Shown here in pieces: positions 307 through 40,167 of a stretch of 64,000 nucleotides of DNA. Below the pieces are notes generated by a model that was given only the letters and a program-made list of their open reading frames with translations, searched no databases and had not been told where the DNA came from. The position numbers and the translations under genes were made by a program. How positions within the stretch are numbered: position 1 is the first letter of the stretch; each line of letters starts with the position of its first letter. Origin of the DNA: a virus; the IMG/VR virus record IMGVR_UViG_3300020472_000019, positions 1-64,000 of that record. One strand, written 5' to 3'.

Positions 307-2057
307 CGGCACTTACATTTCCTAATTCTCCTACAACTGGTGATATTCATACTAGTGGAGAAATGACCTATCGGTATAATGGAACTGAATGGGATACTAT
401 CGGTCAGCCTAGGGCAATGACTACACTTGGAGGTGTTCTACCATTATCAAGAGGGGGTACTGCTGCTGTAAATGCAGCTGATGCTAGAACACAATTGGGT
501 TTAGTAATTGGTACTGATATTCAAGCTCAACACGCCACTCTTGCTGCTGTAGTAGGGGGAACATATACTGGTAATACTAATATTACTACTTTAGGTACGG
601 TTACTACAGGAACAATTTCTACAGGTGTTGTTGTTGCAGATGTAACTATGACTTTAGGAAGTGATGCTGATGGTGATGTTTATTATAGAAGTAGTAATAA
701 ATTAACTCGTTTAGCTAAAGGCACTGCTAATCAAACATTAACAATGAATGCTGGTGCTACAGCTCCAGAGTGGGCTAGTAGTTCTGTCCATATTGGAGAA
801 TCACCCCCTGGCTCTCCAACAGCTGGCGGGCTGTGGTGGGATTCTACCGATAATGATGGTGATTTAAAAATCTATTATACTGATGGTGATGCTACTAATC
901 AATGGGTATCCACAAATATTATGGGTGGATCAGTTGCTGGAAATGATACAGAACTTCAATATAATTATTCTGGAAAAGCTGGTTCTACAGCAGATTTAAC
1001 TTGGGATCGTAGTTCACATTTTTTATATGCTAAAAATATAAGAGTTGATAATAATGGAACTATTGGTTCTCCAACAACTGCTGATCTAATCAAACTAACA
1101 ACTAATAATGTAATTCTTAAAGGTAATCAGACTGATGATACTGATGCATTATTAGAATTACAAAGTGAAGAAACAGGAGCAAGCACTTCTCCAGATATTG
1201 CTTTGTATAGAAACTCTGCTTCTCCAGCTGCTCTTGATAATAGTGGCAAACTTTGTTTTATGGGAAATACTGTTAACGGAACAAAAGTTCTTTATTCTTC
1301 TATTTTTGGTAAGATAAATGATCCTTCAAACGCCGCACAAGATGGGTGTATATATCTTGCCTCAAAGACAAATGGAAATGATGCTAATTTTATTTTTGGG
1401 TATACTGGTAATGATTTTCGTGTTCCAGATGGAGGCACAGTTGGTTGTCATTCCAACGGCAATGGTTTATCAATTGCAGCCAGTGGCATAATTAATCTTA
1501 TACAGGCTGGTGCAACGGTAAATAGTGCAAAAATAAAAACAGTTGGTAAAGAAACTATTTGGATGCCTGGAAATGCAATGAGGCCAGCTAAAACAAATCC
1601 TTGTGCTAGTTTAACAGAAGTTGATTCTGGTGGAAACTCTGGGCCAGATTTACAGGTTTTAGATTTTGATGCCTCAACTGATGAGTTTGCTCAATTTAGT
1701 GTTGCTATGCCTAAATCTTGGGATGGTGGTAATATTACTTATAGTGTTTATTGGATCGGTAATGCAAGTACAGATGCTTGTATTTGGAATTTAGCTGTTA
1801 AAGCCTTAGGTGATGGTGAAGATATTAATGTTGCTTTTGGTGGTATTGTAGCTGTTACTGATAATTCTCAAAGTTCTGCTACAGAGATACTTGTTTCAGC
1901 TGAAAGTGGTGCTATTGCTTGTAGTGGTGCTGATGGTGATATTTTATATTTCCAAATATCAAGAGATGCAAATAATGGTAGTGATACTATGTCAGCTGAT
2001 GCTAGATTAGTCGGAGTTAAAATATTTTTTACGACAGATAAAACAAATGATGCTTAG
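303..2057 (+). CDS. Tail fibre-like structural protein A (584 aa)
   Basis: A low-complexity Thr/Gly/Asn/Asp-rich protein. The N terminus has the pattern ALTFPNSPTTGD followed by YRYNGTEWD, a short opening domain repeated in the paralogue at 3401. The middle is beta-repeat-like. The last ~150 residues (IWMPGNAMRPA, DEFAQFSVAMPK, ARLVGVKIFFTTDK) are clearly homologous to the C terminus of the 3401 gene. ATG 303 was chosen because it overlaps the upstream stop (ATGA); an in-frame TTG at 285 is possible but less likely. It is followed 11 bp later by a glycine-rich gene, as T-even gp37 is followed by the gp38 adhesin. A fibre or tail-spike role is inferred from composition and context. Confidence 0.7.
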   Translation: MTALTFPNSPTTGDIHTSGEMTYRYNGTEWDTIGQPRAMTTLGGVLPLSRGGTAAVNAADARTQLGLVIGTDIQAQHATLAAVVGGTYTGNTNITTLGTVTTGTISTGVVVADVTMTLGSDADGDVYYRSSNKLTRLAKGTANQTLTMNAGATAPEWASSSVHIGESPPGSPTAGGLWWDSTDNDGDLKIYYTDGDATNQWVSTNIMGGSVAGNDTELQYNYSGKAGSTADLTWDRSSHFLYAKNIRVDNNGTIGSPTTADLIKLTTNNVILKGNQTDDTDALLELQSEETGASTSPDIALYRNSASPAALDNSGKLCFMGNTVNGTKVLYSSIFGKINDPSNAAQDGCIYLASKTNGNDANFIFGYTGNDFRVPDGGTVGCHSNGNGLSIAASGIINLIQAGATVNSAKIKTVGKETIWMPGNAMRPAKTNPCASLTEVDSGGNSGPDLQVLDFDASTDEFAQFSVAMPKSWDGGNITYSVYWIGNASTDACIWNLAVKALGDGEDINVAFGGIVAVTDNSQSSATEILVSAESGAIACSGADGDILYFQISRDANNGSDTMSADARLVGVKIFFTTDKTNDA

Positions 2058-2068
2058 AGGAAATTGTG

Positions 2069-3139
2069 ATGGGATTGTATGGGGCTTATAGCGGATTTGG
2101 GGGTGGTCAAGTAGCAGCTCCAGAAACAGGACTTTATGCATTTACAGCACATACTTTTACCCATGCCAGCAAAGTTGGTAGAGAAGGTGGAGATTTAAAC
2201 GATTTTACAACGGAATATTCTGGTCAAACATGGGCTCAAGACACAGCTTACTTTAATGTTGCAACCGATGGGTTTCAGAGGTGGACTGTGCCAGATACGG
2301 CAAGTTATGATTTTATAGTGGCTGGAGCTCAAGGTGGAGGCGGTGGAGGTTATGGTGCAAAAATAACTTTTACGTTAGCTTTAACTGAAGGCGATAAACT
2401 TCTTTTAGCAGTTGGCCATCGTGGTGTTAACACTAATGGTACATATAGGCCAAGTTCTGGAGGCGGAGCTAGTGGTGTTTTTTCAAATGCAGCTGTGGGT
2501 GATGGGGAAGATTCAAGTGATACAGTTATAGCAGTTGCTGGAGGCGGTGGTGGAAGAAGTATTGGTACTACCAGTACCAATGTTACTAATATGTGTGGTT
2601 ATGATGGAACATCTGGCCGAAGTGGTATTTCTAGCCCTGCTTGGAATAACTATGCTGGTGGAGCAAATGGTAATGGTGGTGCAACTGGAAGTGGTACTGG
2701 AGGTGCTGGAACTGGTGGTGGTATTTTAACTGACGGTGGTGATAATAATGGTTCAAAAGGATATTCAAAATATAATGGATGGCTTGGTGGTAATACAAGA
2801 ACAAGTGGACAAGAAAAGTCTACTGGTGCTTTTGGCGGAAGTGGAGGAGCTTCTGTGAATGGTGGTAGGTATCGTGGCGGTGGCGGCGGTGGTGGTTATT
2901 CGGGCGGAGGTTCAGGCGTAGGTGATGGAGTAGCAAGTGCTGGTCGTGGCGGCGGTGGAGGAAGTTTTTGTGCTGCTGATGGAACTGTTTCGTGCAACTT
3001 TAAAGGTGTAAGTTCCAATAGAACACTTTCTAATAGAACAATATATGGTAATTCTTTTATTAATACAAATGGTAATTCTTTAAGTGCTGGTGATCACTCT
3101 GGAGCTGCCAATGGGTACATAACAATTACTAAGGTATAG
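2069..3139 (+). CDS. Glycine-rich adhesin-like protein A (356 aa)
   Basis: The protein has many poly-Gly runs (for example GGGGGG near residue 273) alternating with Ser, Thr and Asn, and ends in a short non-Gly tail (HSGAANGYITITKV). Glycine-rich loops of this kind are the hallmark of T-even gp38-type receptor-binding adhesins, and also of some fibre-tip domains in marine phages. ATG 2069 is preceded by AGAGG at 2056-2060 with good spacing; a GTG at 2066 is the alternative. It lies just after fibre-like protein A, so a tip adhesin or host-range determinant is a reasonable inference. Confidence 0.6.
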   Translation: MGLYGAYSGFGGGQVAAPETGLYAFTAHTFTHASKVGREGGDLNDFTTEYSGQTWAQDTAYFNVATDGFQRWTVPDTASYDFIVAGAQGGGGGGYGAKITFTLALTEGDKLLLAVGHRGVNTNGTYRPSSGGGASGVFSNAAVGDGEDSSDTVIAVAGGGGGRSIGTTSTNVTNMCGYDGTSGRSGISSPAWNNYAGGANGNGGATGSGTGGAGTGGGILTDGGDNNGSKGYSKYNGWLGGNTRTSGQEKSTGAFGGSGGASVNGGRYRGGGGGGGYSGGGSGVGDGVASAGRGGGGGSFCAADGTVSCNFKGVSSNRTLSNRTIYGNSFINTNGNSLSAGDHSGAANGYITITKV

Positions 3140-20973: not shown

Positions 20974-21405
20974 ATGAAATTAGAAGAATTACAAAGTGAA
21001 GCAAAACAAGACCTTCAAATAATAGACCAAGAACGTCTAGACCAAGAATCATATAAAAATCAAAACATAAAACCAAAGTGGTTGGAATACAGAACTAAGT
21101 ATGACCAATTACTTATTATGTCAAAAGCAAATCATCAAAGAATGTACCGTGAAAAATGGGAGTACTATGGTGGTAAGGCTGATGCAAAAGTTTATGCAGC
21201 TAAACCGTTTGATCTGAAGATATTGAAAACTGACCTTCAGATGTATATAAATTCTGATGAAGATATACTAAACTTGCAAGGTAAAATTGCATACTATGAG
21301 AGTATTATTAAATATATTGATGGTGTTATCAAGTCTATAGATAATCGTGGTTGGGATATACGTAATGCTACAGAATGGAAGAAGTTTGAAGCTGGGATGG
21401 TGTAG
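20974..21405 (+). CDS. uvsY: Recombination mediator UvsY
   Basis: A 143 aa protein (T4: 137) starting MKLEELQSEAKQDL, with the SKANHQRMYREKWEYYGGKAD region and the ending IRNATEWKKFEAG. T4 UvsY likewise starts MRLEDLQEELKKD and ends in RAFEAGK. UvsY loads UvsX on gp32-coated single-stranded DNA. The stop overlaps the GTG start of the next gene. It is grouped with uvsW, as in T4. Confidence 0.9.
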   Translation: MKLEELQSEAKQDLQIIDQERLDQESYKNQNIKPKWLEYRTKYDQLLIMSKANHQRMYREKWEYYGGKADAKVYAAKPFDLKILKTDLQMYINSDEDILNLQGKIAYYESIIKYIDGVIKSIDNRGWDIRNATEWKKFEAGMV

Positions 21406-21950
21406 TGGATAAATTAACTGATTATATTGGATATTATGAAGATATTGTTCCAGATATGTTATCTAAACAGTTAATGTGGTATACTTTTGACTTTAAACCA
21501 TCTAAGTTTGCAAATCATTATGGAGATGTGACAAAAGAAAGAAGTGAAGAACGTGTTAGAATGGATGATGTTTGGATTTCAGCTGAAAGTTCATTTCATA
21601 GAAAAATAGATAAATGTTTTGATAAAGTAATTGAAAATTATAATTATCCCCATTTGAATATAGAAAGAAAAACATATTTTAGACTTCATCGTTATAGTGG
21701 TACTGGTTATATGTCAGAACACGTAGATAGTATTCATCACAGTCATAAGCAGAAATATGGATTTCCACATTGCACAGCTTTATTATTTCTAAATGATGAT
21801 TATGAAGGTGGAGAATTTTTAGTAGCAAATAAAAAATTTAAAACTAAAAAAGGTTCTGCACTAATTTTTCCATCTAATTTTATGTATCCTCATAAAGTAA
21901 TGGAAATTACTAAAGGGGTACGTTGGAGCATAGTTACTTGGTTATTGTAA
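21405..21950 (+). CDS. 2OG-Fe(II) oxygenase, prolyl-4-hydroxylase type
   Basis: A 181 aa double-stranded beta-helix dioxygenase. The iron ligands are His and Asp in SEHVDSIHH (~residues 105-113), the distal His in YPHKVMEI, and the 2OG-binding Arg in GVRWSIVTWLL. YEGGEF is the typical strand before the distal His. It starts at GTG 21405, overlapping the uvsY stop, and ends right before the uvsW ATG. The substrate is unknown. It is one of six such enzymes in the window. Confidence 0.85.
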   Translation: MDKLTDYIGYYEDIVPDMLSKQLMWYTFDFKPSKFANHYGDVTKERSEERVRMDDVWISAESSFHRKIDKCFDKVIENYNYPHLNIERKTYFRLHRYSGTGYMSEHVDSIHHSHKQKYGFPHCTALLFLNDDYEGGEFLVANKKFKTKKGSALIFPSNFMYPHKVMEITKGVRWSIVTWLL

Positions 21951-24499: not shown

Positions 24500-25551
24500 A
24501 ATTAGCCATAATAACCGATACTCATTTTGGTGCAAGAAATGATAATCTTAATTTCAACGAATATTTTTACAAATTTTATGATGATGTATTTTTTCCTACT
24601 TTAAAAGAAAGAGGAATTACAACTTGTATCCATATGGGAGATGTTGTAGATAGACGTAAGTATATCAGTTATAGAATTGCAAATGATTTTCGTGAAAGGT
24701 TTGTTAATCGTTTTAAAGAAATGAATATTGATCTTCATATTATAATTGGTAATCACGATACTTATTATAAGAATACGAATGAAATAAATTCTATGGAAGA
24801 ACTTGTTGGTTCTGATAGGTTTAAAATTTATACAGGCCCAGAAGTTGTAGAGTTTGATGGTACTCCTATTTTGTTTGTTCCTTGGATTAATTCAAATAAT
24901 CACGAAATTTCAATGGATGCTTTAGAAACTGCAAATGCAGATATTCTTATGGGTCATCTTGAAGTAAATGGTTTTGATATGCATAAAGGACAACCAGCAG
25001 AAGGTAAGTTTGAAAAGAAACTTTTTCGTAGATTTGATACTGTATTCAGTGGTCATTTTCATCATAAATCTGATGATGGACAAATTTATTATCTTGGTAC
25101 ACCCTATGAATTATTCTGGAATGATTATCAAGATCCAAAAGGATTTCATATCTTTGATACTAGTACAAGAGAACTTGAACGTATTGTAAATCCACATACT
25201 CTTTTTGAAAAGATTTATTATAATGATGTAGATAATAATTATCAAAAACATGATGTATCAAAGTATAATGAAAAATATGTAAAGTTGATTGTAGTTAATA
25301 AGAAAGACTTATATCAGTTTGATATGTTTGTTGATAGACTATTAAAAGCTGATGCATATGAAGTTAAAATCATAGAAGATTTTTCAGAGTTAGATGCAAA
25401 GAATGTATCAGATGATATTGTAGAAAATACAGAAGATACTTTAACATTATTGGAAAAGTATATAGATGAATTAGATATTACTTTAGATAAGAAAAGATTA
25501 AAGAATACTATGAAGTCTTTATATAATGAAGCTCAAGATTTAGAACTGTGA
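24496..25551 (+). CDS. gp47: Recombination nuclease subunit gp47 (SbcD/Mre11-like)
   Basis: A metallophosphoesterase of 351 aa (T4: 339). Motifs: DTHFGARN (residues 7-14), HMGDVVDRR, GNHDTYY, and GHFHHK near residue 189. With gp46 it forms the Mre11-Rad50-type complex that resects DNA ends for recombination and degrades host DNA. The start is TTG 24496 within the gp55 stop. A Mom-like gene separates it from gp46. Confidence 0.95.
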   Translation: MKLAIITDTHFGARNDNLNFNEYFYKFYDDVFFPTLKERGITTCIHMGDVVDRRKYISYRIANDFRERFVNRFKEMNIDLHIIIGNHDTYYKNTNEINSMEELVGSDRFKIYTGPEVVEFDGTPILFVPWINSNNHEISMDALETANADILMGHLEVNGFDMHKGQPAEGKFEKKLFRRFDTVFSGHFHHKSDDGQIYYLGTPYELFWNDYQDPKGFHIFDTSTRELERIVNPHTLFEKIYYNDVDNNYQKHDVSKYNEKYVKLIVVNKKDLYQFDMFVDRLLKADAYEVKIIEDFSELDAKNVSDDIVENTEDTLTLLEKYIDELDITLDKKRLKNTMKSLYNEAQDLEL

Positions 25552-26324
25552 TTGTAAAAACTGTTGATTGGAGAGTAGCTACATTATTTGTACAAGAAAG
25601 GCATTATTCACCAGTAATGCCAAAACTAACTAAGCATTGGTTAGGTACTTATATAGATGATAAATTGATTGGAATTTTAACTTTAGGATGGGGAACACGG
25701 CCTGTACATACAATTAGAAAATTATTTCCAGAATTGGATACAAAAGATTATTATGAGATAGGAAAAATGTGTATGGATGAATCTATGCCTCGTAATTCTG
25801 AATCACAGATGTTATCCAAAACAATAGAATGGATGAAAAAAAATACACCAGATAGAAAATATCTCTACACTTGGGCAGATGGCATAGTTGGAAAGCCTGG
25901 GTATGTTTATCAATCTGCTAATTTTCTTTATGGTGGATTTATTTGGAGTGATGTATATGTTACAGAAGAAGGTGAAAAGATACATCCTAGAACTATGGGT
26001 AAATATATTAAAGGTGCAAGGCCAACTTTTGAAGAACGTAAGGAATTAAATATTTCTAGTGTATTTGGAAAACAGTTTAGGTATATTTACCCATTAAATA
26101 AAAAGGCAAGAAAATATTTGAAACAATCAACGTGTGAATGGAATACTAATTATCCTAAAGATAAAGATTTAGGATGGAAAATAAAACCAGTAGGTGAAAA
26201 GAGTTATGTTTATTCTGATACAATACCATTTGATTATGATGGTTCTAATACAAAATTTAATTCTCAAAATGTAGATAAAGTATCAGTAAAGTATGGAGTT
26301 GGAAATTTGGAGGCTTTTCTTTGA
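25548..26324 (+). CDS. Mom-like DNA-modification acetyltransferase homologue
   Basis: A 258 aa protein with the pattern VQERHYSPVMPKLTKHWLG, GWGTRP, YYEIGKMCMDESMPRNSESQ and YTWADGIVGKPGYVYQ. This matches my recollection of Mu Mom-type proteins (GNAT-related enzymes that alter adenine in phage DNA and block restriction). It overlaps both gp47 and gp46 by 4 bp, so it is embedded in the resection operon. It starts at GTG 25548. The enzymatic product is not deducible from sequence. Confidence in the family is moderate. Confidence 0.65.
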   Translation: MIVKTVDWRVATLFVQERHYSPVMPKLTKHWLGTYIDDKLIGILTLGWGTRPVHTIRKLFPELDTKDYYEIGKMCMDESMPRNSESQMLSKTIEWMKKNTPDRKYLYTWADGIVGKPGYVYQSANFLYGGFIWSDVYVTEEGEKIHPRTMGKYIKGARPTFEERKELNISSVFGKQFRYIYPLNKKARKYLKQSTCEWNTNYPKDKDLGWKIKPVGEKSYVYSDTIPFDYDGSNTKFNSQNVDKVSVKYGVGNLEAFL

Positions 26325-33913: not shown

Positions 33914-34825
33914 ATGATACCTGTAATTGACTTGAATGATAAAAATGTAGTGGAGAAATTTAAAGAAACTTATACTACTATAGGATTTGCTGTTTTAACA
34001 AATCATTTTACTAAAGATGAACAACAATTATATAATAGTTGGTTTAAGATTATAAAAGAGTTTTTTGACTTGGATTTGGAAATAAAAAACCAATATGAGT
34101 TTGATATTAATGTTATGTGTGGGTATGGTTCTTTAGCTTCACCGATCAATGGTTTGGATTTAAGTGAAACTTTTAATTTTGGAAGAGGAAGAATACCACT
34201 CCATTTCTGGCCAAAAGAAATCTTAAATTTTAAAGAAACAGCTTTAGAGGCTACAAGTATAGCTGATAGTTTAAACTTAAAAGTATTAAGTATTTTTGAT
34301 GAGGTAATAGGCAGACCAGATAAACCTCTGACAAATGCTCATAAAGAAAATTATACAACAACAAGACTTATACATTATCCAATTTATGATGGAGAACTTA
34401 GAGATGGCCAAGAAAGAATGGGTGAACATAATGATTATGGTACTTTAACTTTTTTATGGCAATTAGAAGATGTGCCTGGTTTAGAAGTTAAAGATTTAGA
34501 TGGCAATTGGCATCCTGTACCTTATATTGAAAATGGTGTTGTTTGTAATATAGCAGATTTACTTCAAAGATGGACTAATGATTTTTTAAAGAGTACAAGA
34601 CATAGAGTATTAAAATCTCATTTACATATACCACGATATAGTCTAACACATTTTATAGATCCTGCTCCTAATACAAGAATAGAAAATTTAATGAAAACTC
34701 CACCAATATATCCAGTTATAGAAGCATTAGATGTTACTGATTTATTTGCTGATAGATTATCAAAAGATGCTTCGGTTTTTGATTATAGGGGCAGAATAAA
34801 AGATGAAAATGGCTACTGGCTGTAA
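33914..34825 (+). CDS. Isopenicillin N synthase-like 2OG-Fe(II) oxygenase (303 aa)
   Basis: The N-terminal domain (MIPVIDLND, YTTIGFAVLTNH) is the DIOX_N type. The catalytic core has H-x-D in GEHNDYGTLTFL (~residues 174-185), the distal His in STRHRVL (~234) and the R-x-S 2OG site in RYSLTHF. It is full length for the family. The substrate is unknown: members oxidise small molecules, peptides or nucleic-acid bases. ATG 33914 was chosen by its RBS; an upstream in-frame ATG would lie before the late promoter. It lies between cobS and hsp20, near the radical-SAM operon. Confidence 0.88.
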   Translation: MIPVIDLNDKNVVEKFKETYTTIGFAVLTNHFTKDEQQLYNSWFKIIKEFFDLDLEIKNQYEFDINVMCGYGSLASPINGLDLSETFNFGRGRIPLHFWPKEILNFKETALEATSIADSLNLKVLSIFDEVIGRPDKPLTNAHKENYTTTRLIHYPIYDGELRDGQERMGEHNDYGTLTFLWQLEDVPGLEVKDLDGNWHPVPYIENGVVCNIADLLQRWTNDFLKSTRHRVLKSHLHIPRYSLTHFIDPAPNTRIENLMKTPPIYPVIEALDVTDLFADRLSKDASVFDYRGRIKDENGYWL

Positions 34826-34879: not shown

Positions 34880-35015
34880 ATAAAGGCAATTCGTAAGTCC
34901 TTTCCAACGTGCTTTTTCGGTGATTTTGTGCCCTTGGAAAAAACAAAATCACCAATTAACTGTATCGCCATTATGGGATACAAAATAAATCTTGCTTATA
35001 GTAAAAGGAGATAAA
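34880..35015 (+). promoter_or_regulatory. Structured 5' leader of hsp20 with an H-type pseudoknot
   Basis: GGTGATTTTGT (34919-34929) pairs perfectly with ACAAAATCACC (34943-34953). Its loop contains TTGGAAA (34934-34940), complementary to TTTCCAA upstream (34901-34907), so an H-type pseudoknot can form. TCCTTT (34898-34903), overlapping that 5' strand, is complementary to AAAGGA (35004-35009) of the hsp20 RBS, so the two pairings exclude each other. A smaller hairpin, TGTATC/GATACA, lies at 34961-34982. The layout suggests translational control; the trigger is unknown. Confidence 0.55.
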
Positions 35016-35459
35016 ATGATGGTAACTACTAAAGCACTTCCTTCCCTATGGGAAAATTTTAACACACTAACACCTCACGTAGTAGGTTTTGATCGTATGT
35101 TTGATATGTTGTCTAGAGACATAGATTCATATCATACAGGCGGCTTTCCACCTTACAATATCAGAAAAGAAGGCGAAAATATTCATGTAATTGAAATGGC
35201 TCTTGCTGGTTTCGGTAAAAAAGATGTTGAAGTGGAAATGTCAAATGGTACTTTAACAGTTCGTTCTGTTAAAGAAAAATCAGATGACGATGACTCTACT
35301 GTTTATCGTGGGATTGCATATCGCAAATTTGAACGTAAGTTTACAATTGCTGATGATGTAGTTGTTAATGATGCTAAATTAGAGAATGGTATGCTTCTAA
35401 TTAGTTTAGAACGTATCATTCCAGAGGAAAAGAAACCTCGTCTAATTGACGTTAAATAA
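35016..35459 (+). CDS. hsp20: Small heat-shock protein Hsp20 (IbpA-like)
   Basis: A 147 aa alpha-crystallin-type chaperone. The core begins PPYNIRKEGENIHVIEMALAG, and contains GFGKKDVEVEM, TVRSVK and the C-terminal ENGMLLISLER, with a short IIPEE extension in place of the I-x-I tail. It holds unfolded proteins, and in T4-like marine phages is thought to assist capsid or replication protein folding. ATG 35016 (or 35019) follows AAGGAG. It carries its own promoter and structured leader. Confidence 0.93.
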   Translation: MMVTTKALPSLWENFNTLTPHVVGFDRMFDMLSRDIDSYHTGGFPPYNIRKEGENIHVIEMALAGFGKKDVEVEMSNGTLTVRSVKEKSDDDDSTVYRGIAYRKFERKFTIADDVVVNDAKLENGMLLISLERIIPEEKKPRLIDVK

Positions 35460-35466
35460 TAAAAAC

Positions 35467-35495
35467 AAAAAAGGGAACATAAAGTTCCCTTTTTT
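35467..35495. terminator. Bidirectional terminator between hsp20 and the reverse operon
   Basis: AAAAAAGGGAAC (35467-35478), loop ATAAA, GTTCCCTTTTTT (35484-35495). The A run on one side and T run on the other let it act on both converging transcripts. Confidence 0.88.
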
Positions 35496-37141
35496 TATAT
35501 TTTATAGTTTCTATTTTCATCCCAAGATTTATTATAGAAATGTTCTTGACCTTCCATCCATTTTTCTATTATGTTCAAAACATGACTATCTTTATTTTTA
35601 AATTCCATATAGTCTTTTATAAAAGTAAATGAATTTCCAGATACCGTAGGTTTATCATATATTTTTCTTTGTTGAGCTTCATGTGCAAATATAAAAAATC
35701 TTTCAATTCTTTTTTTATAATCACTATATTTACCTTTCCATCGTAAATCAGAAGAAGGATGAGACGGCACCATTTCACCTAATGACTCTGTATCTACATA
35801 ATATCTTTCTGGATTCATAAAAACAGGCGTACCAGAAATTACAACCATTGGATGATCCATACCTACCATTCCTATTACATTTGGATATCTGGCAAACATA
35901 TCTAATATATCAATACTCTCTTGAAAATCTTTATCTGTTTCTGTTGGAAATCCTACAAACATTAAAGGTATCATTCTAAGTTTATTTTTATTCATTTCAT
36001 CTAAATGATATTCTATAGCTTCATTAGAAAAATACTTTCCTAATTCTTTTCTTACCTTTTCGCTACCAGATTCAATACCACAAGTTGGCTCTAAATAACC
36101 AGCTCCTTTCATTAATTCAAACATATTAGGTTTAATTTGATTTTTTTCTCTACATATAAATTGTCCATGAATTGAAAAACCAAAGCAATCTTGATAATTC
36201 TTATTATGTTTAGAAGATAAATAAGACTTAAATACTTTGAGAGAAGACCTATTCTTTTCTTTCCAATCACTTACTAGTTCCATCAATTTTAAAAATTCTT
36301 TATAATTACCATTTGTCAGACTATCAGTAAATTTAATTTGTTTTACATAAGGATATTTGTTATGTAAATATGTGATTTCTTCAAAAATTTTATCTGCACT
36401 TTTCCATTTAAATTTTTGCCATAATGTTGGTACATTACAAAATGCACATTTACGTACACAACCTCTGGAGCCTTTTATAAACAATGCAGGGCTTGGATAT
36501 TTTTCATAATCAATATCCTCATAATCTGGAGTTGGTATATTATCTTGGTTTTCTATTGGTTTATGATCATATGAATTGATGCCAGGGTAATCATAATTTC
36601 CTTTTAAATATTCAACAACACTAATTTCAGCATCACCAGAAATATAATCATCTATTAAATTTGATTCTTTCAGATCATCAAAGAAACTTTTTTTCGGTGG
36701 AGTTATGCCATGTGTATAAAATAATGCTTGCTTAGCATTTGATGCTATAACAGGCCCTCCTATAATAATTTTTACTTTTGGATTTATATTTCTTATTTCT
36801 CTAGTCACAATTAAGAGGTTTGGATATGTCCATGTAGAAAAAACAGATATACCTATAATTTTTGGATTGATTTTTTTAATTACTTCATCATAAAATTTGT
36901 GAAAATATAGGATATATATATCTTCAATATCTTTAATGTCATCTGATAATAGTGTTCTATCCATTATATCCCAAATATGACTCAAAGATGTATCTTTAGT
37001 TTGATTATATAACCACTCATTAAAGTCAATAGCTTTAGCAGAAAATCCAGCTTCCTTAGCACAAGCTGTTAATTGTGTTATTGCCAGAATAGGCCCTTTA
37101 ACTTCTAATTTGGGTATAGATAAAAATATGATATCTGTCAT
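35495..37141 (-). CDS. Radical-SAM enzyme with N-terminal cobalamin-type Rossmann domain (548 aa)
   Basis: The [4Fe-4S] motif is GCVRKCAFC (Cys228, Cys232, Cys235). The first ~185 residues form a Rossmann-like region (IIGISVFSTWTYPN, KVKIIIGGP) ending in SGDAEISVVEYLKG, the layout of B12-binding radical-SAM proteins; I see no DxHxxG cobalamin motif, so cofactor binding is uncertain. Downstream motifs GIESGSEKV and FVGFPTET are typical of the AdoMet barrel. It is the last gene of the five-gene minus-strand operon. Such enzymes methylate or rearrange unactivated carbons; the substrate is unknown. Confidence 0.85.
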   Translation of the reverse strand: MTDIIFLSIPKLEVKGPILAITQLTACAKEAGFSAKAIDFNEWLYNQTKDTSLSHIWDIMDRTLLSDDIKDIEDIYILYFHKFYDEVIKKINPKIIGISVFSTWTYPNLLIVTREIRNINPKVKIIIGGPVIASNAKQALFYTHGITPPKKSFFDDLKESNLIDDYISGDAEISVVEYLKGNYDYPGINSYDHKPIENQDNIPTPDYEDIDYEKYPSPALFIKGSRGCVRKCAFCNVPTLWQKFKWKSADKIFEEITYLHNKYPYVKQIKFTDSLTNGNYKEFLKLMELVSDWKEKNRSSLKVFKSYLSSKHNKNYQDCFGFSIHGQFICREKNQIKPNMFELMKGAGYLEPTCGIESGSEKVRKELGKYFSNEAIEYHLDEMNKNKLRMIPLMFVGFPTETDKDFQESIDILDMFARYPNVIGMVGMDHPMVVISGTPVFMNPERYYVDTESLGEMVPSHPSSDLRWKGKYSDYKKRIERFFIFAHEAQQRKIYDKPTVSGNSFTFIKDYMEFKNKDSHVLNIIEKWMEGQEHFYNKSWDENRNYKI

Positions 37142-37681
37142 TTAAATTCCAGAACTCAAATCTAAGAAATCTCTGACATGAATTTGCCATATGGTTTGTA
37201 AACAATTTTTATATTGTAATTCACTTAAATATGAAAATCTTGGATCATTGTTTACAATCCTTTTAAGATATTTATCTAATTTAACGCTGCCAGGATTTTT
37301 GGAGTCCAAAACAGAGACACTAGTTAAAAAACATATTCTTTTAGCACCTTGAGAAAATGCATAGTCTATTTGATAAGGTAGAGTGTAAGTTAGTAATCCA
37401 GAACCTTGTATTATTGTTTTGTTTTTTGGAAAGTATTTTCCTCTATATTTTTTAAGTGTTCCTGTTCTTTTAAAAACAAGATATGTATCTTCATAATAAT
37501 CACAAAAATTAACAGTATGACTTACCCCAGCTATTTCATCATCAACATAAACTAAAAATAAAGAGTTATTTAATGGATAATCATTTATATTTTTTTGATT
37601 CTGCATACTATCCATTTCTGCCTTTAAAGTAAATTTTAAAAGATCGTTATAATGATTATCGTTATACTGTACTACTTTCAT
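37142..37681 (-). CDS. GNAT-like protein of unknown function (179 aa)
   Basis: The N-terminal arrangement (MKVVQYNDNHYNDLLKF, then SLFLVYVDDEIAGVSHTVNF) and a following YLVFKRTGTLKKYRGK suggest an acetyltransferase-type fold. The acetyl-CoA loop (usually Q/RxxGxG/A) could be IIQGSGLL, but it is not canonical. It starts inside the stop of the upstream hydroxylase gene and ends directly before the radical-SAM ATG, so it is part of one operon. The function is unknown; a tailoring transferase is plausible. Confidence 0.5.
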   Translation of the reverse strand: MKVVQYNDNHYNDLLKFTLKAEMDSMQNQKNINDYPLNNSLFLVYVDDEIAGVSHTVNFCDYYEDTYLVFKRTGTLKKYRGKYFPKNKTIIQGSGLLTYTLPYQIDYAFSQGAKRICFLTSVSVLDSKNPGSVKLDKYLKRIVNNDPRFSYLSELQYKNCLQTIWQIHVRDFLDLSSGI

Positions 37682-38130
37682 CCTAATATTCCAACTATAT
37701 GTATTCTATCTTCTTTAGAAGCATTTAGTGCTGTATGCATTTTTGTTGTATCAACAATGTAAGAGTAACCATCAGCTGGTAAATGAAATTGAACACCATC
37801 TACTAGCAAGAAACAATGTGGGTTTGTTTTAATTGGTATATGGAGTCTCTTAGTTGTATCATTATGCCAATAATAACAATAGTGAGAAGGTAAACGCATT
37901 AGTCTTGTTCTTGTTAAAGATTCTTTTTTCATTAATTCATTTATATAAGGAATATCGTATAATGGAATATTATATTCATGCTCTTTATTATCTACATCCA
38001 AATAGTTTTCTGACATAGGATCACAACCTACTTCTTTTCCTTGTAGATAAATCTGTTTATCAAATTTTGGTAAAGTGTTTATTTCCTCTTTAATCCAATC
38101 AAGATCAATTTTTTTATGTTTTTCCCACAT
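37678..38130 (-). CDS. Aspartyl/asparaginyl beta-hydroxylase-like oxygenase (150 aa)
   Basis: A compact cupin-type dioxygenase. YYWHNDTTKRLHIPI supplies the H-x-D iron ligands (His89, Asp91) and the R-x-H-I-P family signature; the distal ligand is His132 (MHTALNAS) and Arg142 (DRIHIVG) fits the 2OG anchor. These residues match the Asp/Asn beta-hydroxylase family, which hydroxylates Asp or Asn side chains in proteins or peptides. It overlaps its neighbours on both sides by 1-4 bp. Confidence 0.8.
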   Translation of the reverse strand: MWEKHKKIDLDWIKEEINTLPKFDKQIYLQGKEVGCDPMSENYLDVDNKEHEYNIPLYDIPYINELMKKESLTRTRLMRLPSHYCYYWHNDTTKRLHIPIKTNPHCFLLVDGVQFHLPADGYSYIVDTTKMHTALNASKEDRIHIVGILG

Positions 38131-39455
38131 TATATTATTTTTTCCTTGTATTTTTCTATTACATTTTTAGTTCTTAATTCAATTTCTTTTCTATCATCAA
38201 TAGTAAGTTTTGATGTTTGTTCTGGTGTGTATCCTAGATTTCGTAATCTATTATAAAAAGTAAAACCAGAAATACTAGTTATTGGTGTATTTACAATATC
38301 TATAGCTTCATCATATGTTAGGTTGTCATTATACCATTTTCCATTCTTGTCTATAGTATAACCAAATTTTGAAGGATTAGAACCAAGAATACTTTTTTTA
38401 CCTAAAGAAAGAACTTGCATACTCCAGTTATCTATAGGACTATTTTTTAACCATTTTACAGAATCTTTTAAAGTTTCTTTTGTTTCATATGGTAGGCCTG
38501 CTATGAAGCCTAGTGAAATTTGTAATTCTGGATATTGTTTTTTAATATCTAGCAGCCCTTGCTTAATTTTATCTGGATGCATACCTTTACCTACAAATTT
38601 TCCAGATTTATGATTAAAACTTTCTATTCCAAAGAATACACTTTTCATACCACTTTCAATTAATTGTGGTAATGTTTCTGGTCTTGATAATATAAGATCA
38701 AGTCTTGCGTATGTGCTAAATTCAATATCAAATGGTAATTTTTTAATCATATTATTAAAAGAAGAAACTTTTTCTGGACTATCGTTATAAGTATCATCAC
38801 AAAACATATATCCTGTAGTTCCAAATTTAATCCAATTTTCCATCAATTCTTGTTTTACAACTTCTGGACTTTTGCAAAATTCCCATAACTTTTTACCATT
38901 TAAATTATATGAACAAAATTTACATTTAAAAATACAACCTCTTGCGATTTCTATAGGTAAATGTTCTCCTTCAAAAATATTATCTTTAGTTGTCCAATTT
39001 ATTTTACTTTGTGTAAAGTCAAAATTTTTGTTAAATTTTATTTCTCCCTCACCATAAATATTTTCAACATTAGAAAATTCATTTTTTACTTTTGATCCAC
39101 CTATGCAAATTTTTAAACCTAAACTTTTAATATAATCAAACAGTTCATCAGCTTCCACTTTTGATAAACCAATGCAAGTAGTTTCTTTTATTTTATTTGT
39201 AGTTTGAAATCTATTAAGAAAAACATCAAAGTTTCTAGGGGCTAGGAATGTACTACTAAATCCTACCCATTCGGTGTTTTTTCTTTTATGCTTTCTGATA
39301 ATATCTTTTAGTTCTTTAATAGTATATGACATCATATAGTCAATAATAGTAACCTCATTTCCACTATTTCTAAGTTCTGTAGCAAGTCTATATGTTCCAG
39401 CATATTTTCCTATGCCAAGACTACCATTAATGTCCGTAAATAATATGCAATGCAT
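38130..39455 (-). CDS. Radical-SAM enzyme, B12-type architecture (441 aa)
   Basis: The cluster motif is GCIFKCKFC (Cys174, Cys178, Cys181). The N-terminal Rossmann-like half (SLGIGKYAGTYRLATELR, then VTIIDY, VGFSSTF, KICIGG) ends with YGEGEIKF, as in cobalamin-binding radical-SAM proteins, but lacks a clear DxHxxG. Barrel motifs: ARLDLIL, FFGIESFN, LGFIAGLPYET. ATG 39455 is chosen because AGGAAAG lies just upstream; a longer frame starts at 39482. It shares only family-level similarity with the 35495 product. Confidence 0.83.
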   Translation of the reverse strand: MHCILFTDINGSLGIGKYAGTYRLATELRNSGNEVTIIDYMMSYTIKELKDIIRKHKRKNTEWVGFSSTFLAPRNFDVFLNRFQTTNKIKETTCIGLSKVEADELFDYIKSLGLKICIGGSKVKNEFSNVENIYGEGEIKFNKNFDFTQSKINWTTKDNIFEGEHLPIEIARGCIFKCKFCSYNLNGKKLWEFCKSPEVVKQELMENWIKFGTTGYMFCDDTYNDSPEKVSSFNNMIKKLPFDIEFSTYARLDLILSRPETLPQLIESGMKSVFFGIESFNHKSGKFVGKGMHPDKIKQGLLDIKKQYPELQISLGFIAGLPYETKETLKDSVKWLKNSPIDNWSMQVLSLGKKSILGSNPSKFGYTIDKNGKWYNDNLTYDEAIDIVNTPITSISGFTFYNRLRNLGYTPEQTSKLTIDDRKEIELRTKNVIEKYKEKII

Positions 39456-40125
39456 CACAATCTTTCCTAAAGGTGCCATCAAGTCTTAAACAAAAGGTAG
39501 CATCAGCTACACCATCACTTCCATGTTCTTGATTTTCATCAAACCAAGCACAAGTACAATCTGGATAATACTTTTTATCTCCATCTTTAATCCAAAAACG
39601 CATAGCATTTTTATCTATTGTTAACCATAACATATCTGGTTTGTTTGCATAGTTATCATCAATACTATCTCTATGTGCTGTTAATTTAGCAAAAGAATTT
39701 AAAATAAATAATTGTATTCTGCTCACTTCTTTAAACGGAGATTTATTTTCTATCCAATCAATTAGGTTTGGAAAATGTTTAGCATTTTCAGTATATTTAG
39801 AGCCAAGTTCTGTATGTCTAGTATGATATGTTTTTGGTATTTTAATATGCAAGTTCTCTACAGGGTAGTGTATCTTATAATAGTATTTAATATACTCTCT
39901 AATCTGATCATGATCTAAATCCTTTAAATAATCTGAATCTTGTTCTTTAAACAAATTCTCAAATTCATAAGGATGTTTTAAATCTGGATAGCCTTCTATT
40001 CCTGTTGCTCTACTGCCAGGATGGCACAATCCTTTTCTACCTTTACTAATACCTATACATATTTCTCTAGCAGCTGAAGAAATAAAGCTATCAATATCTA
40101 CGTATTCATCTAAATTTATAAACAT
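39427..40125 (-). CDS. 2OG-Fe(II) oxygenase-like protein, first gene of the reverse operon (232 aa)
   Basis: The C-terminal half has LTAHRDSID (His151, Asp153), AWFDENQEHGSDG (His201) and FCLRLDGTF (Arg214). This is the H-x-D...H...R set of beta-helix dioxygenases, with the ordering of asparaginyl-hydroxylase-like enzymes. The N-terminal 120 residues are unfamiliar. The start at 40125 has no Shine-Dalgarno; upstream lies CTAAATA on the minus strand, a weak late-promoter variant. It overlaps the next gene by 29 bp. Confidence 0.68.
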   Translation of the reverse strand: MFINLDEYVDIDSFISSAAREICIGISKGRKGLCHPGSRATGIEGYPDLKHPYEFENLFKEQDSDYLKDLDHDQIREYIKYYYKIHYPVENLHIKIPKTYHTRHTELGSKYTENAKHFPNLIDWIENKSPFKEVSRIQLFILNSFAKLTAHRDSIDDNYANKPDMLWLTIDKNAMRFWIKDGDKKYYPDCTCAWFDENQEHGSDGVADATFCLRLDGTFRKDCDALHIIYGH

Positions 40126-40167
40126 GGTTAAAAATATTTAGGGGGGTAAAGAAATAAAAAAAGGTAC

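Follow-up and report, generated by a model that had tools for sequence, protein, structure and literature searches.

The DNA analysed here (hereafter the window) is a stretch of 64,000 nucleotides, positions 1 to 64,000 of the IMG/VR virus record IMGVR_UViG_3300020472_000019, whose total length is 70,671 bases. It comes from a marine T4-like phage with a DNA polymerase 62% identical to that of the OM43 phage Melnitz. Between hsp20 (34992-35459) and the DUF3310 and gp45 genes lies a cassette of five genes, named here P1 to P5, encoding two radical S-adenosylmethionine (radical-SAM) enzymes, one 2-oxoglutarate (2OG)-Fe(II) oxygenase and a second, putative one, and a GNAT-fold protein. An initial annotation had described five overlapping open reading frames (ORFs) forming the sole multi-gene minus-strand block and closed by a bidirectional terminator. 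This layout was confirmed: adjoining genes abut or overlap, all on the minus strand (35495-40125), outside this block the window's large, plausible genes lie on the plus strand, and the terminator-like hairpin has T runs on both sides. The features are the following.

35467-35495: bidirectional intrinsic-terminator-like hairpin between hsp20 and P1, 12-pair stem, T runs on both strands
35495-37141, minus strand: P1, B12-binding radical-SAM enzyme, 548 amino acids, PF04055 and PF02310 above cut-off
37142-37681, minus strand: P2, GNAT-fold protein by predicted fold, 179 amino acids, without a Pfam match
37678-38130, minus strand: P3, 2OG-Fe(II) oxygenase of the Asp/Asn-hydroxylase (AspH) family, 150 amino acids, PF05118 above cut-off
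38130-39455, minus strand: P4, radical-SAM enzyme (PF04055) with a degenerate N-terminal B12-type domain, 441 amino acids from the ATG
39427-40125, minus strand: P5, putative 2OG-Fe(II) oxygenase of a new family, 232 amino acids, conserved triad
40135-40141, minus strand: CTAAATA, possible T4-type late-promoter-like element found by motif scan, 9 nt before the P5 ATG

The P4 ATG is at 39455, and a TTG at 39482 is a possible alternative start. As a late-promoter element, CTAAATA is suggestive only, the motif being found also inside genes of this AT-rich window.

The core of the cassette recurs through divergent phages and is under purifying selection. Related loci, in which genes were called as longest ORFs, were found in three further lineages. 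In L002 (IMGVR_UViG_3300025636_000716), AspH, a P1-like gene, a second B12-radical-SAM gene, P5, P4 and P2 form one overlapping run. Four contigs of a single lineage (L014-L017) have the order AspH-P5-P4-P2-SDR (short-chain dehydrogenase/reductase)-B12-radical-SAM, L017 ending before AspH, and L159/L160 carry P2-P5-P4 plus a convergent AspH gene; L002 and L159 are fragments labelled viral by IMG/VR. All four lineages, window included, have the P5-P4-P2 core plus a hydroxylase of the AspH type, and three have a B12-radical-SAM gene; P2 relatives adjoin P4 in L002, L016 and L159. Identities between lineages are 51-61% for P4 (window protein: 61% to L002, 55% to L016, 54% to L159), 35-48% for P5 and 33-52% for P2. 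The backbones carrying these cassettes differ, since the L016 contig has a T4-type portal (2e-177) and a flanking gene of marine T4-like type present in 408 phage records, mostly cyanophages, whereas the L002 flank gave distant phage matches only. A phage sheath marker had no match on six partial viral contigs, a result that says little for fragments. The initial annotation had made its proposal depend on co-occurrence of the genes elsewhere, and the gene set was found together in divergent viruses.

Selection was estimated on the sister cassettes L155 and L156, where the ratio of non-synonymous to synonymous substitution rates (dN/dS) was 0.035-0.108 for all six genes, which indicates purifying selection. 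This value, together with ORFs that are intact in all lineages, argues against a passenger (moron) that was recently acquired, is useless to this phage and bears its AT-rich composition as a foreign mark. Such an origin would fit the low GC content of the cassette (27.7% vs 33.0% for the whole window, second lowest among 119 windows) and its insertion site, which is variable: the hsp20-to-gp45 interval of Melnitz has small genes only, and the same site of Pelagibacter phage HTVC008M carries a different 2OG oxygenase. The GC content at third codon positions lies inside the range of the window's other large genes. We consider a mere passenger very improbable.

The AspH proteins follow another pattern than the core. 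P3 of the window shares 60% identity with the AspH in a separate AspH plus radical-SAM pair of L041, and only 33-41% with the AspH proteins of the other core cassettes. From this we infer a co-inherited P5-P4-P2 core accompanied by exchangeable decorating enzymes. The two-gene pair, AspH plus B12-radical-SAM, was seen in L040-L048 (e.g. L041 7399-9095); in L041 its surroundings include tail-fibre-like genes together with a row of SPASM-like, DegT, SGNH and glycosyltransferase-like genes. The P4 cassettes of L016, L159, L161 and L163 lie directly upstream of or near a DUF932-type gene, and this neighbourhood is a possible insertion hot spot in several marine phages.

Turning to the individual enzymes, P1 matched Radical_SAM (PF04055, E 4.1e-14) and B12-binding (PF02310, E 6.6e-9, 36.1 bits, above the 32.1 cut-off) in Pfam. 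Its CxxxCxxC sits in RGCVRKCAFC, and this motif is invariant between P1 and the first radical-SAM protein of L002, which share 41% identity. P1 is therefore predicted to have both the core and the cobalamin-binding domain of B12-dependent radical-SAM enzymes. P4 matched PF04055 (E 2.6e-15), with a Cys motif invariant across 12 members of its family, 7 of which matched PF02310 at E<=0.1 (best 2e-6). The N-terminal cobalamin-type region initially attributed to both radical-SAM proteins thus stands for P1, and is degenerate and below cut-off in P4. Cobalamin import is plausible in hosts of this kind, since the Melnitz host carries btuB under a cobalamin riboswitch (PMC9004378), and P1 would need the cofactor. 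Among NCBIfam models, many B12-radical-SAM families gave sub-threshold matches (PhpK, methyltransferases of ribosomally synthesised and post-translationally modified peptides (RiPPs), HpnJ), none near its curated cut-off. P1 shares with PhpK (TIGR04479), rSAM_ocin_1 (TIGR03975) and HpnJ the B12-binding plus radical-SAM architecture and CxxxCxxC, but the scores are far below every one of the curated cut-offs. A PhpK/BcpD P-methyltransferase assignment (TIGR04479) was rejected at 93.8 and 87.4 bits vs a cut-off of 600, and so were RimO and ArsL readings, whose scores are far under the curated cut-offs. Among solved structures, P1 is closest in sequence to RimO (2.6e-6), the enzyme that methylthiolates ribosomal protein S12. 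Single-sequence scans of viral sequences with P1 or with P5 found no relatives, and alignment-based scans were needed; scanning genomes with an alignment of two P4 sequences found none, while a three-sequence alignment worked.

P3 matched Asp_Arg_Hydrox (PF05118, E 7.2e-8, 32.9 bits, above the gathering score of 22.6), and H89-x-D91, H132 and R142, the iron triad and the 2OG-binding Arg, are invariant in 17 relatives. It resembles Cpz10 (PDB 7V4F), a 2OG beta-hydroxylase of caprazamycin biosynthesis, by phmmer (6.5e-15), and the P3-family profile matched Cpz10 over its whole length (1.5e-38), followed by L-proline cis-4-hydroxylase; no human AspH structure was matched when this profile was run against solved structures. 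In Cpz10 the site of hydroxylation is the beta carbon of an aminoacyl-glycyluridine; H115, D117 and H160 hold the iron and R170 is near 2OG (PMC9814697). The four P3 residues follow the same order with near-identical spacing. The nearest solved relatives of P3 thus use an aminoacyl nucleoside and free proline. Cpz10 differs in belonging to a Streptomyces nucleoside-antibiotic cluster, P3 being found in a phage, beside radical-SAM enzymes and P5. An Asp_Arg_Hydrox protein of Pelagibacter phage Mosig is 38% identical to P3 over 94 residues, but has no radical-SAM, P5 or P2 neighbours within the 24 kb examined.

P5 matched no Pfam family. Across 13 aligned, diverse relatives the residues H151, D153 and H201 do not vary, and R or K occupies position 214 (R214 in the window); this conserved triad is the signature of 2OG-Fe(II) oxygenases and underlies our assignment. 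The profile link to PF05118 is weak (3 of the 13 relatives match, best E only 0.037; hhalign probability 45% with 13 members), which sets P5 apart from that family, and a P5-AspH link drawn by hhalign from an early P5 alignment proved unsupported. An AlphaFold model built from three sequences had a mean pLDDT of 41, and Foldseek returned no meaningful structural match. We propose P5 as a putative new family of 2OG-Fe(II) oxygenases, not a member of PF05118. The H-x-D...H...R set first noted in two proteins is therefore borne out for P3 by profile and residues, and for P5 by residues and not by profile.

P2 likewise matched no Pfam family. In its AlphaFold model, which has a mean pLDDT of only 59, strands and helices follow one another as in GNATs, and its top Foldseek matches in the PDB are GNATs, including 9mto and Naa50 (E 1.3e-4). 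By its predicted fold P2 belongs to the GNAT superfamily. The GNAT-like call made at the outset thus agrees with the fold and not with profiles, nor with the R-x-x-G-x-G/A coenzyme A (CoA) motif, which is degenerate in P2 (RGKYFP in the window; RGFGFP in L002, RAKGFG in L016).

These assignments bear on a protein target, be it a protein of the virion, a ribosomal protein of the host or a ribosomally synthesised peptide whose gene lies elsewhere, on which P3 and P5 would hydroxylate Asp or Asn, P1 and P4 would C-methylate or methylthiolate, and P2 would acetylate the N-terminus. PF05118 indeed includes protein hydroxylases as well as LpxO, RimO is the best solved relative of P1, P1 has sub-threshold RiPP-methyltransferase matches, and the fold neighbours of P2 include Naa50 and RimI-type N-terminal acetyltransferases. 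Such matches are however generic to their superfamilies and far under curated cut-offs (78 vs 282 bits for TIGR03975), and the P3 family is nearest to small-molecule hydroxylases. As the initial annotation had noted, no precursor peptide is visible beside the operon: no small ORF in the surrounding free DNA is common to the four core cassettes, the only similarity being antisense of DUF932. A RiPP cluster was rejected for this lack of a shared precursor ORF around the four core cassettes, a distant or host-encoded precursor being possible. The peptide, ribosomal or surface target initially put forward is thus possible but unsupported, and we regard a protein target as unlikely without being negligible.

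The wider P4 family was explored with a three-member P4 alignment, which found relatives on 486 viral stretches; neighbours were counted for the best 80 of the 486 matches, i.e. the nearer relatives. Over 56 distinct loci, frequent neighbours were desaturases (25 of the 56), twitch/SPASM-type radical-SAM proteins, PP-loop proteins, AspH, P5 and P2-like GNATs. In L056 a GNAT-AspH fusion ORF adjoins the P4 relative, and L161 and L163 have a UDP-glucose-dehydrogenase-like gene near theirs. Some viral clusters are larger: L190 (4054-13649) holds about 12 genes, among them GNATs, two AspH, a TauD-like gene, two PP-loop/AsnB-like genes, a desaturase, P4 and P5, and two or three P4-family paralogues per cluster occur in L216 (2761-4203, minus strand), L204 and others.

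P4-like genes are also chromosomal: of 291 Bdellovibrionota genomes, 15 carry such genes at E<=1e-25, with E below 1e-90 in 10 of these, and there is one strong match in Myxococcota. Their Bdellovibrionota neighbourhoods contain AspH, GNATs, SDRs, PP-loop proteins, desaturases, acyl carrier protein (ACP) and HTTM. P5-like genes beside them are rarer, and were seen next to a P4 paralogue (L134), next to a radical-SAM gene (L136) and among desaturases (L152). The clusters of L134 (2285-16863) and L135 (4084-14974) combine radical-SAM, AspH, GNAT, desaturase and PP-loop genes with ACP, transketolase-like or HTTM genes; no nonribosomal peptide synthetase or polyketide synthase was present among the genes examined. 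Bdellovibrionota clusters thus resemble the phage cassette in having P4-like radical-SAM genes with AspH and GNAT, and P5-like genes in two clusters examined, but they are larger, chromosomal, and equipped with desaturases, ACP and PP-loop proteins, and P2 orthologues were not detected in them by the P2 profile. At the edge of the L134 cluster (1066-2229, minus strand) lies a gene with an ADP-ribosyltransferase-exoenzyme domain (PF03496, 1.4e-15).

The frequent desaturases beside P4 relatives and the UDP-glucose-dehydrogenase-like gene of L161 and L163 would suit an envelope modification, in which host lipopolysaccharide or membrane lipid is altered, with the effect of excluding other phages or changing adsorption sites. 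The weak LpxO match of P3 points the same way, as does the accessible text on pelagimyophages, which locates both lipopolysaccharide genes and cassettes with radical-SAM genes in the host-recognition island of these phages (PMC7029224). The cassette of the window, however, has no glycosyltransferase, desaturase or sugar-nucleotide enzyme, it lies by replication genes and not in a tail-fibre island, and P3 fits Cpz10 far better than LpxO. We judge a dedicated envelope-modification cassette rather unlikely.

With slightly less than even confidence, we favour reading the operon as a mobile set of enzymes by which a small molecule is made or tailored in the course of infection. Because the set recurs in unrelated phages and in Bdellovibrio-like chromosomes, it is probably a real, so far undescribed pathway and not an accidental assembly; recurrence in divergent viruses and purifying selection likewise support the phage-encoded tailoring pathway proposed initially. 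A small-molecule substrate is favoured by the absence of a shared precursor, by the nearest solved relatives of P3 and by the lipid and small-molecule neighbours. In this scheme P4 and P1 would use SAM radical chemistry (P1 with cobalamin) to modify unactivated carbons, by C-methylation for instance; the substrate would resemble an amino acid or an amino lipid and probably bear an amine. P3 and P5 would hydroxylate it with 2OG, Fe(II) and O2, and P2 would cap it by acyl transfer. The core probably sets the scaffold and the AspH/B12-radical-SAM enzymes the decoration, since the latter differ in subfamily between phages. The product may alter a host metabolite, act on the envelope, or be released.

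Several points weigh against the small-molecule pathway. The substrate class is deduced from context, and the cluster members are predicted enzymes. The cassette of the window has no scaffold-forming or adenylating enzyme, and would therefore act on a molecule already in the cell. The B12-binding domain of P4 is under the cut-off (E 0.033, 14.5 vs 32.1 bits), the acyl donor of P2 is uncertain because its CoA motif is degenerate, and P3, whose family extends to protein hydroxylases, has its LpxO match, weak as it is (1.8e-4). In the wider P4 family, most loci are without P5 and P2, and the AspH enrichment near P4 is modest: 4.6% of genes (16/346) within three genes of P4, about 2% at 4-9 and 1% (2/202) at 10-14.

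A broader proposal, possible but doubtful, is that P4-type radical-SAM proteins, AspH, P5 and GNATs define a new class of biosynthetic gene cluster exchanged among marine phages and related to the Bdellovibrionota clusters, making, during infection, a new oxidised, radically alkylated molecule derived from an amino acid or a lipid. If the small-molecule pathway is real, a new metabolite would be made during phage infection: with an envelope target it would matter for competition between phages, and if free it would count as a natural product carried by phages. The 2OG oxygenase and radical-SAM annotations scattered one by one, and with no function assigned, over marine phages become a testable pathway, and P5 and the P4 clade are delineated as protein families so far lacking a name.

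As to precedents, none of P1 to P5 matched a PHROG family at E 0.01, and tblastn of the five against INPHARED gave the Mosig AspH as sole relative, for P3. The open-licence literature held no description of this five-gene composition or of a function for it. In the accessible text of PMC7029224, one line reports that the host-recognition cluster of pelagimyophages has radical-SAM cassettes, and an AspH-family gene is given as core to these phages. Those cassettes are similar in being variable radical-SAM cassettes of marine T4-like phages, but as far as that text goes they lie in a tail-fibre island, the cassette of the window being between hsp20 and gp45. The initial statement that no described T4-like phage system is known with exactly this set therefore agrees with our searches. 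Phage-borne metabolic cassettes are a known kind, and the searches support this composition being new as far as they reach. A known anti-phage defence system was also considered and rejected: PADLOC gave only PDC-M51A matches of 32-43 bits on both radical-SAM proteins, generic to radical-SAM and not family-specific, and a weak Cmr7 match on P2.

Base hypermodification in phages draws on enzymes of the radical-SAM, GNAT and 2OG kinds, and a DNA or nucleotide hypermodification protecting the phage genome has thus to be weighed, all the more as the window has a separate Mom-like gene. Yet the cassette has no TET/JBP oxygenase or base-entry enzyme, its oxygenases are of the AspH type, and its Bdellovibrionota chromosomal relatives accompany lipid-type enzymes, so that we give this explanation very little credence. 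The Mom-like gene (25548-26324, plus strand; phrog_1384, 1.2e-39) lies between SbcD-like and SbcC-like recombination nuclease genes and suggests adenine modification of the phage DNA. Two more 2OG oxygenases are encoded in the window, one at 21405-21950 and one of the DIOX_N/isopenicillin-synthase type immediately upstream of hsp20 (33914-34825, plus strand; PF03171, 6.9e-18).

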